From the NCBI GenBank assembly GCA_030705825.1, contig JAUZPR010000009.1:1-47690 (forward strand): a DNA stretch of 47,690 nucleotides. Direction: 5' to 3'. Numbering within the stretch: position 1 is the first letter of the stretch; the number at the start of each line of letters is the position of its first letter. Made by a program: the position numbers and the translations under genes. The stretch comes from Bacillota bacterium. GTDB lineage: Bacteria > Bacillota > Clostridia > Acetivibrionales > JANLFN01. The notes beneath the pieces are model-generated. The model had not been told where the DNA came from, ran no database searches, and worked only from the letters and a program-made list of their open reading frames with translations. This document shows positions 28,932 through 47,690 of this stretch, piece after piece.

Positions 28932-28939
28932 CTACTTCT
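28912..28939 (-). terminator. Terminator overlapping the end of the ytxC-like gene
   Basis: GAAGTAGGTC pairs perfectly with GACCTACTTC and includes the stop codon of the upstream gene. CTTTGTTTTC follows on the minus strand. Confidence 0.65.
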
Positions 28940-29846
28940 CAGTTTCGCCTTTTGCCAACTTTACCCGACATAAATCACATCCGGTGCAAATCAATACTCT
29001 TCCTGAAAAAACATTTTTAATAGTCTCCAGTAATTCCTTGTTCCGGAATTGTTCGGTGCTGTGAATCATAATCTTCCTGGGTGCCAAAGTTATTAACGAG
29101 CTTACAAGCAGATCATCATAATTTACTTCACCTTCGTTTATTTCTGTCATAAACTCCTGAATGCATTCATTGGTTATTTCTTTTCCGTTCCCGTCCTGCA
29201 GAACGTATTTCCCGTCATAGGCCACTATTATATGAACAACATCGAACTTTGGATCCTGTATATCTACAAAATATCTTAAAAGTCTTATAAACTCCTTATA
29301 TTCCCTCTCCATAAGGAAATCATCCACAGCCTTGTCTACTATTTCTTCAAGATCTTTTATATAGTCTTTTAATCTAAAGTTTACAAATCCGTCCAGTATT
29401 ATATTGTTCGAACTTTCAAAATAATCCAGCAGCTTTCTTACAATAATGTTCCTTCGGCGAATCTGAAATATGCTGTTGAGAATGTTTTTATCATCATTTC
29501 TAATAATTCTCAACGCAAGTTTCATTATTTCCTGTTTTTCGGCAGAGTTAAAATAGCAATAATTACTGTTTATTACTCTACCTATCAGCTTCTCCTCATA
29601 CTGTCTTAAAATAAAATCAGCCAAAGCATTTGAAACATGGGCAGTAAGCAGGTTATATGGCTGAAAGGATTTTTCGTTAGAGGTCTTATCTTCATTAATA
29701 CTGCAGATAATGGAAGTCGAACCGTTGGAATTAACTTCGTTAACAGAATAATTCACTTTATTGATATTTAACTGCTGCAACTCGTTGTTAATGTGCTTTA
29801 AAACATCATCAGCACACTCGTTAACTCCAATATAGAGATACTGCAT
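28932..29846 (-). CDS. ytxC: Putative sporulation protein, YtxC family (304 aa)
   Basis: Soluble protein resembling the YtxC-like sporulation family of Clostridia and Bacilli. It opens with a short predicted alpha/beta part (YLYIGVNECADDVLKHINNELQQL). A helical middle follows (ALADFILRQYEEKLIGRVI and FRLKDYIKDLEEIVDKAVDDFLMEREYKEFIRLLRYF). The C-terminal part has VHIIVAYDGKYVLQDGNGKEI and ends in CTGCDLC, a CxxC-type pair that may bind metal. The start is ambiguous among GTG, TTG and ATG within four codons; the ATG is used. The exact role in sporulation is not known. Confidence 0.75.
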   Translation of the reverse strand: MQYLYIGVNECADDVLKHINNELQQLNINKVNYSVNEVNSNGSTSIICSINEDKTSNEKSFQPYNLLTAHVSNALADFILRQYEEKLIGRVINSNYCYFNSAEKQEIMKLALRIIRNDDKNILNSIFQIRRRNIIVRKLLDYFESSNNIILDGFVNFRLKDYIKDLEEIVDKAVDDFLMEREYKEFIRLLRYFVDIQDPKFDVVHIIVAYDGKYVLQDGNGKEITNECIQEFMTEINEGEVNYDDLLVSSLITLAPRKIMIHSTEQFRNKELLETIKNVFSGRVLICTGCDLCRVKLAKGETEK

Positions 29847-30420
29847 CAACTTCACATCCCTTCAAATGTAGTATATGTGTTCGCAAAATGTTGTATGCAG
29901 TAATCGGCTTTCGCAATATTTTCCACAATATGCCTACAAGCATCCTGCATTTCTATATTCATCCGTATAATCAACCCATTCGTCGATTTTTAATATAAAA
30001 CAAAGTCTATAAATGATTTATATTAAAGACTTTGTTTTATGCTCTTTACGGAAATTAAAAAATCAAGGTTGAAATCATAATTTCCCCAAGCATTATAAAA
30101 AATAACCTACCTTCTAATATTTACCGTAGAAAACAGATACCAGGCAGTTGTAAAAAACTCATTCTGCCTTATTTCACCGTGTTTCTAGCGTTCGTTACCT
30201 ATATTATTATATGTAATTGAAATAAGTAAGTTACAAGAAAGAATAAGATTATATGATGTAATATATGGAATACAGAAAAGTTAAAGCAGCTGGTTTCCAT
30301 ATAGTGGGAATTCCCAATATACAAAATATTGATACCAAAAATAGCCAGATATACTATTTAGTATAGTTAAAAATGCGAAATTTAAGAAATTAAGATTTAG
30401 AAATGTAAAAAAAGATATCC
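29847..30420. other. Non-coding spacer
   Basis: No gene is supported. A long hairpin at 29995-30040 (ATAAAACAAAGTCT with AGACTTTGTTTTAT) is probably a terminator. A perfect TGGGAATTCCCA palindrome lies at 30305-30316. The remainder is A+T rich without clear signals. Confidence 0.5.
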
Positions 30421-42735: not shown

Positions 42736-43608
42736 TTACAAGCTTCTTATGTACTCAATGGCTTTCCTTCCGGCAAGAGCACCCTGGCCCACGGCAGTTG
42801 AAACCTGTTTGAAGCCCCCTGTACAATCCCCTGCCGCAAACAGGCCGTCCAAATTCGTCTGCTGGGACTTATCCACAAGAATGGAATTATTGTCGGTTAA
42901 AATCCCCAGCTTTCTTGCGAAATCAATACTCGAGGCACTTCCATATGCAACAAATATCCCGTCTATGCTTTCAGAAGTACTGTCTTTAAAATGTATATTT
43001 TGAAGAAATTCGGTGCCGCTAAGCCTTTCAATTGGCTTTTCATTAACTTTGAAACCTGCCGACTCATCCTTGTACTTATTCGATATATCAAGCTTACTTC
43101 CGTTTGTATATATGGTTATATCTTTTGTGAATGCAGTAAGTTCCATAGCTTCATGTACCGCATAATCCTTGAATCCAAGCACCCCTACCTTCAGATTGTT
43201 ATAGAAAAATCCATCACAGGTGGAGCAGTAGCTCACACCTTTTCCCTCAAATTCATCAATACCCTGGATATTGATTTTTTTCTGGGGTTGTCCTGTTGCC
43301 AGTATTAATGCTTTACCTAGAAAAACCTCATCATTGGTCATTATCTCAAAAAAGTCATTCTTTACTACCGATATGACCTCGGTTTCCACTATCCTGGCGC
43401 CCAGCCTTACCGCCTGCTGTTCCCCCGCTTTGAGCAGATCCTCGCCTCTTACAGGCTCAGCAAACCCAAAGTAATTTTCAATTTTTTCAGTTTTCAACAA
43501 GGCGCTATCGTTTTTACCTATTATTAGTGTATTCAGGTTTGCCCTTACCGTATATAAGGCAGCCGATAGTCCCGCAGGCCCTTTACCGATAATAACGACA
43601 TCGTACAT
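42736..43608 (-). CDS. Thioredoxin-reductase-like flavoprotein, possibly ferredoxin-dependent (290 aa)
   Basis: FAD protein of the thioredoxin-reductase fold. The FAD site is VVIIGKGPAGLSAALYTVRA (4-23), the redox pair is CSTC (128-131), and the C-terminal FAD motif is GLFAAGDCTGG. The segment that normally binds NADPH is degenerate: VGVLGFKDYAVHEAME replaces GxGxxA, and the HRRxxxR motif is absent. That pattern, known from clostridial ferredoxin-dependent flavin thioredoxin reductases (FFTR), suggests reduction by ferredoxin instead of NADPH. It starts three bases after the stop of the thioredoxin-reductase fusion gene. Confidence 0.85.
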   Translation of the reverse strand: MYDVVIIGKGPAGLSAALYTVRANLNTLIIGKNDSALLKTEKIENYFGFAEPVRGEDLLKAGEQQAVRLGARIVETEVISVVKNDFFEIMTNDEVFLGKALILATGQPQKKINIQGIDEFEGKGVSYCSTCDGFFYNNLKVGVLGFKDYAVHEAMELTAFTKDITIYTNGSKLDISNKYKDESAGFKVNEKPIERLSGTEFLQNIHFKDSTSESIDGIFVAYGSASSIDFARKLGILTDNNSILVDKSQQTNLDGLFAAGDCTGGFKQVSTAVGQGALAGRKAIEYIRSL

Positions 43609-43611
43609 ATA

Positions 43612-44895
43612 CTAATTACCCCTTTTGTTTATATATTTTTCCGCCATTAATCCTGCAATAACCCCATCATTAGCAGCAGTAGCTATCTGGCGGATTCTTT
43701 TCACGCGAACATCTCCGGCGGCAAAAACTCCTGCAGCACTGGTATTCATATCTTCATCACATATGATATAACCTTTCTCATCCAGATCCAATAATCCTTT
43801 AAAAAGATCTGTCCGGGGCTGCATTCCTATATAGACAAAAACGCCGTCGGCATTTATTTCTCTTTGCTGCCCGGTTTTAAGGTCTTCAACTACTGCTCCC
43901 TTTAAAAAGCTGTCTCCAAATACCCTGCGTATTTCGGAATTCCATATGACACTTATACCAGGGTTTTTAAACAATTCATCCTGTGCGGTTTTTGAAGCCT
44001 GGAAATGATCCAGCTGATGTATGACTGTTACATGTTTTGCATACCTGGTCAGGAATACAGCCTCTTCTACTGCAGAATTACCGCCGCCTGCGACAAGCAA
44101 ATCAGCATCCTGATACATAGCTCCATCACATGCTGCACAGTAATGGACCCCCCGTCCCCTGAAATCTCTTTCTCCTTCTGCCGGTAGTTTTCTGGGTGCT
44201 GCACCCGTTGCGATTATGATACATTTTACAAAATAGTCGGTATCTTCAGAAGTGACATGTTTTTCCTCGCCTGTAAGTTCCAATTTTTGTATTTCCTTCA
44301 TATCATCTATTCTGGAACCGAAATCCAAGGCCTGCCTTGTCATATTACCAACAAGGTCGGTCCCTCTTATTACCCCATTGGTACCTGGGTAATTGGCTAC
44401 ATTGAAGGTAGTAGCAACCTGCCCACCGGCTATTCCCTCATCAACAACAATCGTATTCATTTTAGCCCTGGCTGCATAAATTGCTGCAGAAAGTCCTGCC
44501 GGTCCGGCGCCCAGAATAAGAACATCACAGTGGACTATCTGTCTTCCCCTTGTTTTACAGGCACCTTCAACAACATTATCCAATACCTGATTGAACTCAG
44601 GCTTGCTGATGTACCCTGTAAGCCTTGAGCAAACTTCTTTTCCGTTTTTAAAAAAGAGTACGGCCGGACTGCTCTTGACATTGTATTTTTCGGCGAGCTT
44701 CCTGTTCTGTTGTCTGAATATCCTTGCAAACTTCATATGCTGGCCGTATTTTTCAGCCATCCGGTCGAAAACAGGTGAAAAGGCCATACAGACAGGGCAG
44801 TCTTCCGAGTAGAAATATACCGCTACAGGCAGTTCATTTTCCAGAACATCCTTTTGAAATATATCTTCAGTCAAAATATCAATAATATAATTCAT
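43612..44895 (-). CDS. Thioredoxin-thioredoxin reductase fusion (427 aa)
   Basis: Residues 1-108 are a thioredoxin domain (AVYFYSEDCPVCMAFSPVF, redox Cys33 and Cys36, cis-Pro in SSPAVLFF). Residues 121-427 are an NADPH-type thioredoxin reductase: FAD site LILGAGPAGLSAAIYAAR, redox pair CAAC (253-256), NADPH site VAGGGNSAVEEA, and GVFAAGDVR. The reductase is at the C-terminus, the reverse of the well-known mycobacterial TrxR-Trx order. The TlpA-like lipoprotein gene ends 18 bases upstream. The chain could reduce its own thioredoxin domain and pass electrons to partners. Confidence 0.93.
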   Translation of the reverse strand: MNYIIDILTEDIFQKDVLENELPVAVYFYSEDCPVCMAFSPVFDRMAEKYGQHMKFARIFRQQNRKLAEKYNVKSSPAVLFFKNGKEVCSRLTGYISKPEFNQVLDNVVEGACKTRGRQIVHCDVLILGAGPAGLSAAIYAARAKMNTIVVDEGIAGGQVATTFNVANYPGTNGVIRGTDLVGNMTRQALDFGSRIDDMKEIQKLELTGEEKHVTSEDTDYFVKCIIIATGAAPRKLPAEGERDFRGRGVHYCAACDGAMYQDADLLVAGGGNSAVEEAVFLTRYAKHVTVIHQLDHFQASKTAQDELFKNPGISVIWNSEIRRVFGDSFLKGAVVEDLKTGQQREINADGVFVYIGMQPRTDLFKGLLDLDEKGYIICDEDMNTSAAGVFAAGDVRVKRIRQIATAANDGVIAGLMAEKYINKRGN

Positions 44896-44913
44896 AGGGC
44901 TAACATCTCCCTT

Positions 44914-45477
44914 TTAATTCTTAGCCGACACCATCTTAAAAAGTTCTTCACTGCTTGTTTTCTGCTTCATAACTTTGTTTAAGGTTCCGTCTCTGTTAAC
45001 AATTACAGTAGTGGGGTAGCTGAATATGTTATATATGCCCGCAACCTTACTATCGGTGTCCAACAAGCTACTCAGCTTCAGTTTATTATCAGATAAAAAT
45101 TTCTTTACATTATCAGGATCTTCTCCAACATTTACATTGATAAGAACAGCTTTGTTTTCCTTAACAAGCTGTGTATTGAGCTTAATGAGTTCAGGCATCT
45201 CATCTATGCAATACGGACTCCAGGTAGTCCAGAAGTTAATAAAAATTACTTTTCCGAAATAGTCAGAAAGCTTTATGTTTTTACCCTCGGTATCCTTAAG
45301 GGAAAAATCCGGAACTGTGAATTTCTCCTCCTTCTGACTTGTCTCAATTGAGCTTTTTGATGCAGAAGGATTTTTACCGTTTGCATCGCTGATTCCGCCC
45401 CTGTCGTAGATACTGCAGCCTGTTAAAAACAGTGTAATTATAAATAATAAGGGTACTAATACCTTTACCCTTTTCAT
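44914..45477 (-). CDS. TlpA/ResA-like thioredoxin-fold lipoprotein (187 aa)
   Basis: Exported lipoprotein with lipobox LTGC (Cys21) after an N-terminal hydrophobic signal. A Ser/Lys-rich linker precedes a thioredoxin-like domain (about 54-187) with FSLKDTEGKNIKLSDYFGKV, INFWTTWSPYC and cis-Pro FSYPTTVIVNRDG. The usual WCxxC active site reads WSPYC: Ser87 replaces the nucleophilic Cys, and only Cys90 remains. It may therefore be a chaperone or a mixed-disulphide partner instead of a full oxidoreductase. It is the first gene of the redox operon, linking the cytoplasmic reductases to the outside. Confidence 0.88.
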   Translation of the reverse strand: MKRVKVLVPLLFIITLFLTGCSIYDRGGISDANGKNPSASKSSIETSQKEEKFTVPDFSLKDTEGKNIKLSDYFGKVIFINFWTTWSPYCIDEMPELIKLNTQLVKENKAVLINVNVGEDPDNVKKFLSDNKLKLSSLLDTDSKVAGIYNIFSYPTTVIVNRDGTLNKVMKQKTSSEELFKMVSAKN

Positions 45478-45630
45478 ATTCCCCCATCTCCATTCTATAA
45501 AACAAATATTTTAAAAGTTCCTTATATTTATGTGAAAAATATATACACTTCCAATATTAATACAATTCCCGAAACAATTTCAATTATTCCGGCTGAAATT
45601 AATTAAAAAAGTAACATTAATGAGTCGTTT

Positions 45631-45658
45631 TAATATTATGGTATATGAAATATAAATT
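45631..45658 (+). promoter_or_regulatory. Candidate sporulation-type (sigma-E-like) promoter
   Basis: TAATATT (45631-45637) and TATAAATT (45651-45658), 13 bp apart, partly match the sigma-E pattern of Bacillus (kmATATT and cATAcanT). No vegetative promoter was seen here. Short degenerate motifs of this kind arise easily by chance in A+T-rich DNA. Confidence 0.3.
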
Positions 45659-45675
45659 CGGGGGCTTTTTCAACC

Positions 45676-45864
45676 ATGGTGGATGATATTTTCTACGACA
45701 ACTCAGGGATATTGTTCTTCATCCTTGATTTTCTTCTTTTGTTTTACGACAACAGAAGTATTGGTATTTTAGCCAGAAAATTTGCTGCCATGCCCGAAGC
45801 CGAACTTACCAAAGCGCTTCTGTTTATATTGGTGTTTTTAATATTATTTTACAAAGGAATTTAA
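45676..45864 (+). CDS. Twin Leu/Phe-repeat small membrane protein (62 aa)
   Basis: Two similar hydrophobic segments, GILFFILDFLLLF (11-23) and ALLFILVFLILF (47-58), are separated by a polar stretch containing AMPEAELTK. The segments follow the consensus LFFILxFLxLF, which recurs in the products at 45996 and, more loosely, 47045. It is the first of five small plus-strand genes. The ribosome binding site is distant (GGGGG at about eleven bases). Family and function are not recognised. Confidence 0.65.
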   Translation: MVDDIFYDNSGILFFILDFLLLFYDNRSIGILARKFAAMPEAELTKALLFILVFLILFYKGI

Positions 45865-45995
45865 AAAGCTAAACCTCCGGCTTATCCGCAAACTTTATGA
45901 TCGGTAAAAAGTACTTGCCGTTCAACAAATTGTTGTAACGTTTTTCCGTGTACCTTCATATTATGTATGGAAAAAAGCGGGTTGGAGGTATTTCT

Positions 45996-46217
45996 ATGGG
46001 TTTTTTAGGGAATCTGTTCAGTGAGGAAAATGATGAACTTCTCTTTTTTATTCTGGTCTTCCTGTTCATTTTTATAAGCGGGAAGTTTGAAAACGGGTTT
46101 GAGGAGAGATCGGCAGACACTAATAATGGTACAGTACTATTCTTCATTTTACTGTTCCTTTTCCTTTTCATGAGATACGGGATAGCCGGAGACCCTAAGG
46201 AAGAAATAGTGGAATAA
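45996..46217 (+). CDS. Twin Leu/Phe-repeat small membrane protein (73 aa)
   Basis: Two hydrophobic segments, DELLFFILVFLFIF (13-26) and TVLFFILLFLFLF (46-58), share the motif of the preceding gene's product. A charged spacer (GKFENGFEERSADTNNG) lies between them and the tail is acidic. The start is the ATG with GGAGG seven bases upstream; the longer frame has no site. The helices are short for a membrane span and highly aromatic, so a self-assembling role is as plausible as a simple membrane anchor. Confidence 0.7.
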   Translation: MGFLGNLFSEENDELLFFILVFLFIFISGKFENGFEERSADTNNGTVLFFILLFLFLFMRYGIAGDPKEEIVE

Positions 46218-46283
46218 GCTTAAAGTCACTGCAGGATAGCGTAATTCTCCGCTGTTATTACATAGTATGAAAGGATGATTATT

Positions 46284-46604
46284 ATGAACGATGCTATAAG
46301 CAAAAAGCTTGCCGAAATGTTGGGAAAAATGGATGAAAAGATTTTACAGGCAAAATTGAACGCTGCTATCGATATGCTTAAGAAAGGAAACCCCGAAGAC
46401 CTCGCTAAGAAAATAAACAAACTGGATAAAAACGAAATAATGAACAAGCTGAATGAACTGGACACATCCAAACTTAATGAGTTTAACATTGATAAGGAAG
46501 AAATTCGAAAAAGAATTAACAGTGCGGATTTTGAAAAAATGTCACAGATACTCGGGGAAAACGGCGATGAAATTATCAATAAATTAAAAGACATTATTAA
46601 GTAA
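46284..46604 (+). CDS. Charged helical small protein (106 aa)
   Basis: An almost entirely helical Lys/Glu/Leu/Asn-rich protein: MNDAISKKLAEMLGKMDEKI, then short repeats such as LDKNEIMNKL and IDKEEIRKRI, ending NKLKDIIK. There are no Cys, aromatic residues are nearly absent, and there is no membrane segment. The start ATG is nine bases after AAAGGA; an ATG three codons earlier overlaps it. Third gene of the small-protein set. Not recognised. Confidence 0.7.
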   Translation: MNDAISKKLAEMLGKMDEKILQAKLNAAIDMLKKGNPEDLAKKINKLDKNEIMNKLNELDTSKLNEFNIDKEEIRKRINSADFEKMSQILGENGDEIINKLKDIIK

Positions 46605-46645
46605 TTTCTGAATATATTCTATTAAAGCCTTTTGGGGGAATCTCG

Positions 46646-47032
46646 ATGAGTGATGATCTTGGAAAAAAGATAAAACAGATCACGGATCTATTAAGCCAGG
46701 ATAACATGTCCGAAACCTTAAAGGACTTGTTTTCCGCCTTTGCCGGACCAGGAGGCAACTCTGAAGCACAGCCGAAAGCAAATGATACTCCGGCTGCTAA
46801 AGAGGAGGGTACCGGTAAGGGTGAGGCGGACAGTTCAGTTGAAATGATGCGAACTGCAAAAAAAATTATGGATAAGTTAAACACAAATAACGACCCGAGG
46901 ATTAATCTTTTAAGTGCAATCAGACCCTATTTGAACAACAAAAGACAAAAGAAACTGGATAGCTGTCTTAGGCTGCTGCAGGTATCAAGTCTTACAAGAC
47001 TAATGGAAGATAGCGGCAAGGACGGCAATTAG
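46646..47032 (+). CDS. Small two-part soluble protein (128 aa)
   Basis: An N-terminal helical part (KKIKQITDLLSQDNMSETLKDLFS) is followed by a Gly/Ala/Pro/Glu-rich linker (about 34-62), then a compact C-terminal part: DPRINLLSAIRPYLNNKRQK and KLDSCLRLLQVSSLTRLM. The DPRI-LL-AIRPYL-xxRQxKxD pattern looks like a conserved clostridial module, but I know no assigned function. A GGGGG site precedes the ATG. It lies 41 bases after the helical protein and 12 bases before the next gene. Confidence 0.7.
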   Translation: MSDDLGKKIKQITDLLSQDNMSETLKDLFSAFAGPGGNSEAQPKANDTPAAKEEGTGKGEADSSVEMMRTAKKIMDKLNTNNDPRINLLSAIRPYLNNKRQKKLDSCLRLLQVSSLTRLMEDSGKDGN

Positions 47033-47044
47033 GGGGGATTTCAT

Positions 47045-47389
47045 ATGGAAAACAAAAGGTATTTCTCTCCGGGCGGCAGGTATGCCTATACTAATTCCCG
47101 CAGCAGATCCAATTCACAATCAGATAATGATCTTGCACTTAACGGTTTAAATGAAACAATAAAAATTCCACCCCCTAATGAACCTCCTGATGAACACGAA
47201 GAAAAACGTTTTAAAAAAAAGCCCGTTACTGCTAAAAATCCATTCAATCAATTAACCGGAATATTTAAAAGGTTCAAAGTTGAAGAGCTTATGCTTCTGG
47301 GCCTGATATTCCTGTTATTCAATGAAAACATAGAAGATGATCTATTACTGATAGTACTCATATACATATTGCTTACGGGCAGGGAATAA
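47045..47389 (+). CDS. Small protein with C-terminal twin hydrophobic segments (114 aa)
   Basis: Residues 1-75 are polar and low-complexity (YTNSRSRSNSQSDND, then IPPPNEPPDEHEEK and KRFKKKP), like a disordered arm. The C-terminus has two hydrophobic segments, VEELMLLGLIFLLFNEN (79-95) and EDDLLLIVLIYILLTGRE (97-114), related in style to those at 45676 and 45996. An AGGGGGG site precedes the ATG. It is the last gene before a strong terminator. Not recognised. Confidence 0.7.
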   Translation: MENKRYFSPGGRYAYTNSRSRSNSQSDNDLALNGLNETIKIPPPNEPPDEHEEKRFKKKPVTAKNPFNQLTGIFKRFKVEELMLLGLIFLLFNENIEDDLLLIVLIYILLTGRE

Positions 47390-47392
47390 TCA

Positions 47393-47421
47393 AAGGCGGC
47401 CAATCGGCCGCCCTTGTATTA
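47393..47421 (+). terminator. Terminator of the small-protein set
   Basis: GGCGGCC and GGCCGCC form a perfect hairpin around AATC, followed by CTTGTATT. It lies just after the last stop codon. Confidence 0.8.
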
Positions 47422-47585: not shown

Positions 47586-47690
47586 TTGAAAAAGAAAACT
47601 CTTGTATTAATTATTGTTACGGTTGTTATAACCTCCTTACTATGGACATCATATATTTTCAAACTGGATCTGTCCGATCAGAGTAAATAC
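47586..47690 (+). CDS. Membrane-anchored protein, N-terminal fragment cut by the window end (partial)
   Basis: A TTG start eight bases after AAAAGGAG opens a frame of 35 codons reaching the window edge. KKKTLVLIIVTVVITSLLW is a signal or anchor helix with a basic N-terminus, followed by a polar stretch. Too little is present to name a family. Confidence 0.7.
   Translation, partial: MKKKTLVLIIVTVVITSLLWTSYIFKLDLSDQSKY

Follow-up and report, generated by a model that had tools for sequence, protein, structure and literature searches.

Introduction

The coat morphogenetic proteins SpoIVA, SipL/SpoVID, SafA, and CotE are expressed early in the mother cell under sigma-E and work at the outer forespore membrane. 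The forespore membrane is marked by SpoVM, a 26-residue amphipathic helix. Bacillus also harbors YjcZ-type proteins, which consist of one hydrophobic stretch with Gly-rich ends. The yjcZ gene of Bacillus subtilis has been assigned to the sigma-K regulon (PMC517825), and the sigma-K consensus in this organism is KCACM, 14 to 16 nt, and GCATANNNTA (PMC3416734, PMC517825). Neither CotE nor SafA is found in clostridia, whose coats likely contain unidentified proteins (PMC3533761); SpoVID is missing there as well (PMC3533761).

Here we describe five small genes, designated P1 to P5, located toward the end of a 47,690-nucleotide stretch of DNA that was analyzed as a whole (the window; C232:1-47690 within a genome of 3.65 Mb). 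The features of the region are as follows.

44914 to 45477, minus strand: ResA/TlpA-like thioredoxin-fold lipoprotein, divergent neighbor, outside the cluster (Pfam AhpC-TSA/Redoxin)
45611 to 45641, plus strand: predicted sigma-K-type promoter of P1, TAACA-N14-TAATATTATG (pattern match; p=0.043 versus dinucleotide shuffles)
45676 to 45864, plus strand: P1, 62-residue Leu/Phe protein with two hydrophobic segments of about 13 residues, the first interrupted by Asp (open reading frame, alignment A4)
45935 to 45965, plus strand: predicted sigma-K-type promoter of P2, TAACG-N15-TCATATTATG (pattern match; p=0.007 versus dinucleotide shuffles)
45996 to 46217, plus strand: P2, 73-residue Leu/Phe protein (MGFLGNLF...) with two hydrophobic segments of 13 to 15 residues (open reading frame, alignment, run lengths)
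46284 to 46604, plus strand: P3, all-helical charged protein of 106 residues, encoded by the first of the conserved core genes (alignments A2/A6, AlphaFold)
46646 to 47032, plus strand: P4, 128-residue protein, the most widely conserved member (alignments A1/A5, distribution, model)
47045 to 47389, plus strand: P5, 114-residue protein (alignments A3/A7, run lengths)
47395 to 47412, plus strand: intrinsic terminator with an all-GC stem of 7 pairs and a loop of 4 (sequence)
47586 to 47690, plus strand: 5' end of the next gene, truncated by the window end (sequence, synteny)

The Leu/Phe proteins resemble YjcZ in that they are very short, hydrophobic, and predicted to be expressed in the mother cell by sigma-K, and, by analogy, yjcZ is an earlier example from Bacillus of a tiny hydrophobic protein made under sigma-K. 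They differ from it in having no Pfam or NCBIfam match, in being built from a 13-residue Leu/Phe/Ile unit that is often duplicated, and in lying beside a P3-P4-P5 operon. With SpoIVA, SipL/SpoVID, SafA, and CotE, the cluster would share expression in the mother cell and the outer forespore membrane as a workplace, and its distribution tracks that of SpoIVA. It has, however, no detectable sequence relation to these proteins, consists of small all-helical proteins plus a short hydrophobic hairpin, and in most lineages is predicted to depend on sigma-K and not, as they do, on early sigma-E. As in SpoVM, its segments may lie as short helices on one face of a membrane, but they are uniformly hydrophobic and twinned instead of amphipathic, and their predicted promoter is a later one.

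Gene content and family searches

An earlier, sequence-only reading of the window described a set of five small genes on one strand with ribosome binding sites and a terminator. This description holds, as all five frames are on the plus strand, each is preceded by GGAGG or a similar element, and the GC-rich terminator follows P5. Each of the five has orthologues in other genera, with 20 to 67% protein identity and the gene order kept, and they are therefore genes and not chance frames; leader peptides and mis-called frames were ruled out by the same protein-level conservation. As for the starts, the ATG of P2 is internal to a longer GTG frame, and P3 is 109 residues long in the list of open reading frames, with an ATG further upstream.

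None of P1 to P5 gave a match above cutoff in Pfam, NCBIfam, or PHROGs, and the homologues of P1/P2, P4, and P5 likewise gave none in Pfam. Weak Pfam matches (Wbp11, MgtE_N, and others) were discarded, every one being below its cutoff. Curated YjcZ-like models (Pfam/NCBIfam) were unmatched by P1, P2, 24 homologues, and the single-segment relatives, and those for SafA, SpoVID/SipL, CotE, and CotJ were unmatched by P3, P4, and P5 or by the homologues of P4 and P5. A search of the open-access literature for the motif and for a sporulation transcriptome of a close relative gave nothing usable. Within these libraries and this literature, the initial impression that no such family had been described is upheld: late mother-cell spore-envelope genes are a known general kind, and the P1 to P5 families are absent from the curated libraries searched.

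P4 consists of an N-terminal helical pair, a disordered linker, and a C-terminal helical DPRINLL..RPYL..RQ..C domain. Residues invariant across the order lie mostly in this C-terminal module (D83, P84, L88, P94, R100, Q101, and C107), and the others are at the opposite end (M1, D4, and K8). The AlphaFold models of P4 (pLDDT of 70 overall and 86 to 97 over residues ~81 to 120, the C-terminal domain) and of P3 (all-helical; mean pLDDT of 69.8) are of middling confidence. When the two were compared with solved folds using Foldseek, no match fell below an E value of 2.7. The best VIA-align result (Z of 6.1, rmsd of 6.2, 74 residues) was within the range that the tool deems common for helical models, and a sequence search of the PDB had a best E value of 0.08.

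Distribution and synteny

P4 was present in 53 of the 58 genomes of the order, and a search of the class with a P4 profile found it in 144 of 293 genomes. In a sample of the phylum it was found in 7 of 199 genomes, 5 of which were outside the class. In each of the 33 order-level loci examined, P3, P4, and P5 were direct neighbors with a common orientation; four pairs of these loci seem to represent the same genome from two collections. One or two Leu/Phe genes were found upstream of the trio in 24 of the 33. The order P3-P4-P5 is kept even in distant families, where P3 and P5 are barely recognizable. The Leu/Phe family is present in 43 genomes, 42 of which harbor P4 (p=9e-14, inflated by kinship among the genomes), and the distance from a Leu/Phe gene to P4 was 0.3 to 1.1 kb in the 24 contigs checked, distant families included. 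Of the five genes, P3, P4, and P5 make up the conserved core, and the Leu/Phe genes vary. The earlier reading had suggested co-conservation as a check on the five-gene set, and the genes do co-occur.

Within the class, spoIVA is present in 137 of the 144 genomes with P4 and in 83 of the 149 without it (odds ratio, 15.6; Fisher p=6e-16, a value that exaggerates independence, as the genomes are related); seven genomes with P4 have no SpoIVA match. P4 occurs mainly in endospore formers, and the P1 to P5 cluster is confined almost to spore-forming Clostridia. The converse is false: SpoIVA is found in 4 of the 5 genomes of the order that have no P4 match, and because these and the 83 class genomes without P4 have SpoIVA, endospore formation as a whole does not require the P4 module. 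The relatedness that inflates the association, along with the P4-containing genomes that have no SpoIVA match, could be taken to mean that these are ordinary small membrane proteins with a vegetative role, linked to sporulation as a by-product of phylogeny. This is most improbable, as the promoter evidence given below is independent of distribution and specific for sigma-K, with sigma-A at background and yabG as a positive control.

The Leu/Phe proteins and P5

P1 and P2 each contain two copies of one motif of about 13 residues, FFILVFLLLF, and the family consensus is N-x-E-LLFFILVFLLLFYD ... D-S-x-ILFFILVFLLLFY (alignment A4). In 22 homologues, the two halves are on average 69% identical across 15 positions. 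The uninterrupted hydrophobic stretches are 38% Leu, 30% Phe, and 16% Ile, and most are 12 to 15 residues long, with a mode of 13. These values confirm the earlier suspicions that the halves are duplicated and that the segments are too short for ordinary membrane spans; a membrane and a protein layer are both possible locations. The twin LFFILxFLxLF segments had also been attributed to the products of 62, 73, and 114 residues alike, which is correct for P1 and P2 but probably not for P5, which shares the twin plan and seems to belong to a different family. Comparison of its profile with that of the Leu/Phe family aligned just 18 columns, with a probability of 43%. P5 is composed of a basic/aromatic N terminus, an IP(L/P)PNE motif, and a C-terminal pair of hydrophobic segments of 11 to 13 residues with an acidic turn.

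Three Leu/Phe units are found within a single open reading frame at locus L004, and single-unit proteins of 33 to 50 residues, such as MSDGIKNFFGDNSEILFFILVFLLLFFNGRYYDKCD, are dispersed over genomes with Leu/Phe genes. From these two-copy, three-copy, and scattered single-copy forms, it follows that the unit has multiplied both within and between genes. The genome of the window itself has five candidate single-unit miniproteins of 38 to 50 residues (L165, 275 to 394, minus strand; L166, 265 to 378, plus strand; L164; L167; and L168), which were probably overlooked by gene callers. In family f34, other tiny hydrophobic proteins, such as FGWVIIILLAFLLMPN and NSFLLLLLLFILLASCC, occupy the Leu/Phe position (L070, 6563 to 6769 and 7473 to 7679, minus strand; L083, 6740 to 6952, minus strand) and are perhaps analogues of the Leu/Phe proteins.

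Proteins of this length and hydrophobicity with a late promoter are compatible with holin-like, membrane-active peptides that modify or lyse the outer forespore membrane or that of the mother cell as sporulation ends, with P3 and P4 as an antidote or organizer. We consider this very unlikely, as a 13-residue segment cannot span a membrane, there is no match to a phage or holin family, P4 has no phage or plasmid relative, and lysis genes would not be expected to keep a conserved place beside a scaffold-like trio. The search of PHROGs for phage holins and small proteins gave no convincing match, no phage record contained P4, and a phage/holin or mobile origin was ruled out on these grounds.

Promoters

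By eye, the regions upstream of the Leu/Phe genes contain GTAACA and, after about 15 bases, CATANTATR, a motif of sigma-K type in its sequence. Written as a regular expression, it matched 28 of the 43 upstream regions, in contrast to 0.33 in dinucleotide shuffles (maximum, 2). When the scoring weights were based on the published consensus of B. subtilis and the A seen here at the second -35 position was partly tolerated, 30 of the 43 had a sigma-K score at p<=0.05 (2.1 expected) and 24 at 0.02. Significant scores in the same regions numbered 4 for sigma-E and 1 for sigma-A, the latter being background, and neither sigma-G nor sigma-A promoters exceeded chance. As the -10 elements of sigma-E and sigma-K are largely common, single promoters can be misassigned, that of P1 in the window (p=0.043) most of all.

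P3 genes with no preceding Leu/Phe gene had sigma-K sites at p<=0.05 in 10 of 24 cases (1.2 expected), and those of operon-first P3 genes are often near perfect (TCACA-N15-GCATAAACTG and GCACA-N15-GCATATATTA). Upstream of operon-first P3 genes in genus g7, the site is sigma-E-like (ACATAATA-N13-GCATACACTG). The internal P4 genes gave none in 20 when scored for sigma-K. The promoter search upstream of P3 in the window gave none (p=0.10), and this gene is probably transcribed from the promoters of P1 and P2. Leu/Phe genes and operon-first P3 genes are thus both predicted to be late mother-cell genes under sigma-K.

The yabG gene, a sigma-K gene in B. subtilis, is preceded by the same motif in the genome of the window (p=0.01; Pfam E value of yabG, 9e-111) and serves as a positive control. 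The motif is also found upstream of a YmaF gene in this genome, and most of the dispersed single-unit Leu/Phe genes carry a motif of this type. The sigma-K regulon of the genome was sampled by pattern search only, and because the pattern gave 52 matches and its reverse 34, many of the single matches are due to chance. Sigma-K-like sites precede an MXAN_6640-family putative metalloprotease (NF045524; L124, 113 to 1570, plus strand), a candidate late sporulation protease, and a Cu/Zn superoxide dismutase-like protein (PF00080; L116, 1095 to 1610, minus strand) that is possibly spore associated. In the window, a YtxC-like sporulation protein (PF08812) is encoded at 28932 to 29855 on the minus strand, with a sigma-K-like motif about 350 bases upstream at 30205 (minus strand).

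Neighboring genes

In most loci outside one genus, P3-P4-P5 is followed by the gene of a SleB-like enzyme with PG_binding_1 and Hydrolase_2 domains, and we infer from its position and start that the gene at 47586 in the window encodes such a cortex-lytic enzyme. The divergent genes upstream encode a ResA-like thioredoxin-fold protein, a thioredoxin-thioredoxin reductase fusion, and a second flavoprotein, accompanied in relatives by a CcdA-like membrane protein. In the window, the fusion, a second TrxB-like flavoprotein, and the ResA-like lipoprotein lie in a row at 42736 to 45477 (minus strand) and possibly constitute a StoA/CcdA-like sporulation thiol system. StoA and CcdA take part in the thiol chemistry of the cortex in B. 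subtilis. The location of P4, with its order-wide invariant Cys, beside genes of thiol enzymes is suggestive only.

This setting raises the possibility of a germination or cortex module, in which P3-P4-P5 would hold or control the adjacent cortex-lytic enzyme and the Leu/Phe proteins would be bystanders: the SleB-like gene is immediately downstream in most loci, distant families included, and the ResA/CcdA-like genes resemble StoA/CcdA. Such a module is nevertheless unlikely, as the terminator in the window lies between P5 and the next gene, and genus g7 and several distant families have the trio with no SleB-like gene. In addition, SleB is a forespore gene under sigma-G in B. subtilis, whereas the promoters of the cluster are of the mother-cell type.

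Discussion

Our results indicate that the cluster is probably a mother-cell sporulation module, particular to a large part of the Clostridia, that builds or anchors an outer layer of the spore and in which P5 and the Leu/Phe proteins would be short hydrophobic elements at a membrane surface. A spore coat or envelope structure had been guessed from the sequence, and the predicted sigma-K promoters, the association with spoIVA, and the synteny with SleB-like genes strongly support it. Transcription by sigma-K in the mother cell late in sporulation would cover the Leu/Phe genes as well as the P3-P4-P5 operon, with the core genes apparently under sigma-E instead in one genus. P5 may use its two short C-terminal hydrophobic segments to attach to the surface of the outer forespore membrane, leaving the basic/aromatic tail exposed, and the soluble, helical P4 and P3 would bind at this site and serve as a scaffold. 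The Leu/Phe miniproteins, variable in gene number and with one to three copies of the 13-residue unit, would be packed into or onto this surface and form an abundant hydrophobic filler of the envelope layer, either the base of the coat or a remnant of the outer membrane.

P1 to P5 are good candidates for missing parts of the clostridial spore envelope. A more tentative proposal, which we put forward with considerable doubt, is that P3-P4-P5 and the Leu/Phe proteins together fill the role in clostridia that CotE, SafA, and SpoVID have in coat assembly in Bacillus, in which case a mother-cell scaffold would be placed on hydrophobic hairpins reaching half a membrane and coated by self-packing 13-residue units. 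The Bacillus morphogenetic proteins CotE, SpoVID, and SafA do not occur in clostridia, many gut species among them, and for this reason little is known about coat building in these bacteria. The P1 to P5 genes add three families that are unnamed and widely conserved, plus a family of hydrophobic miniproteins, with promoter evidence on the timing and cell of their expression, and they provide a gene set that is directly testable in culturable, non-pathogenic, cellulose-degrading clostridia.
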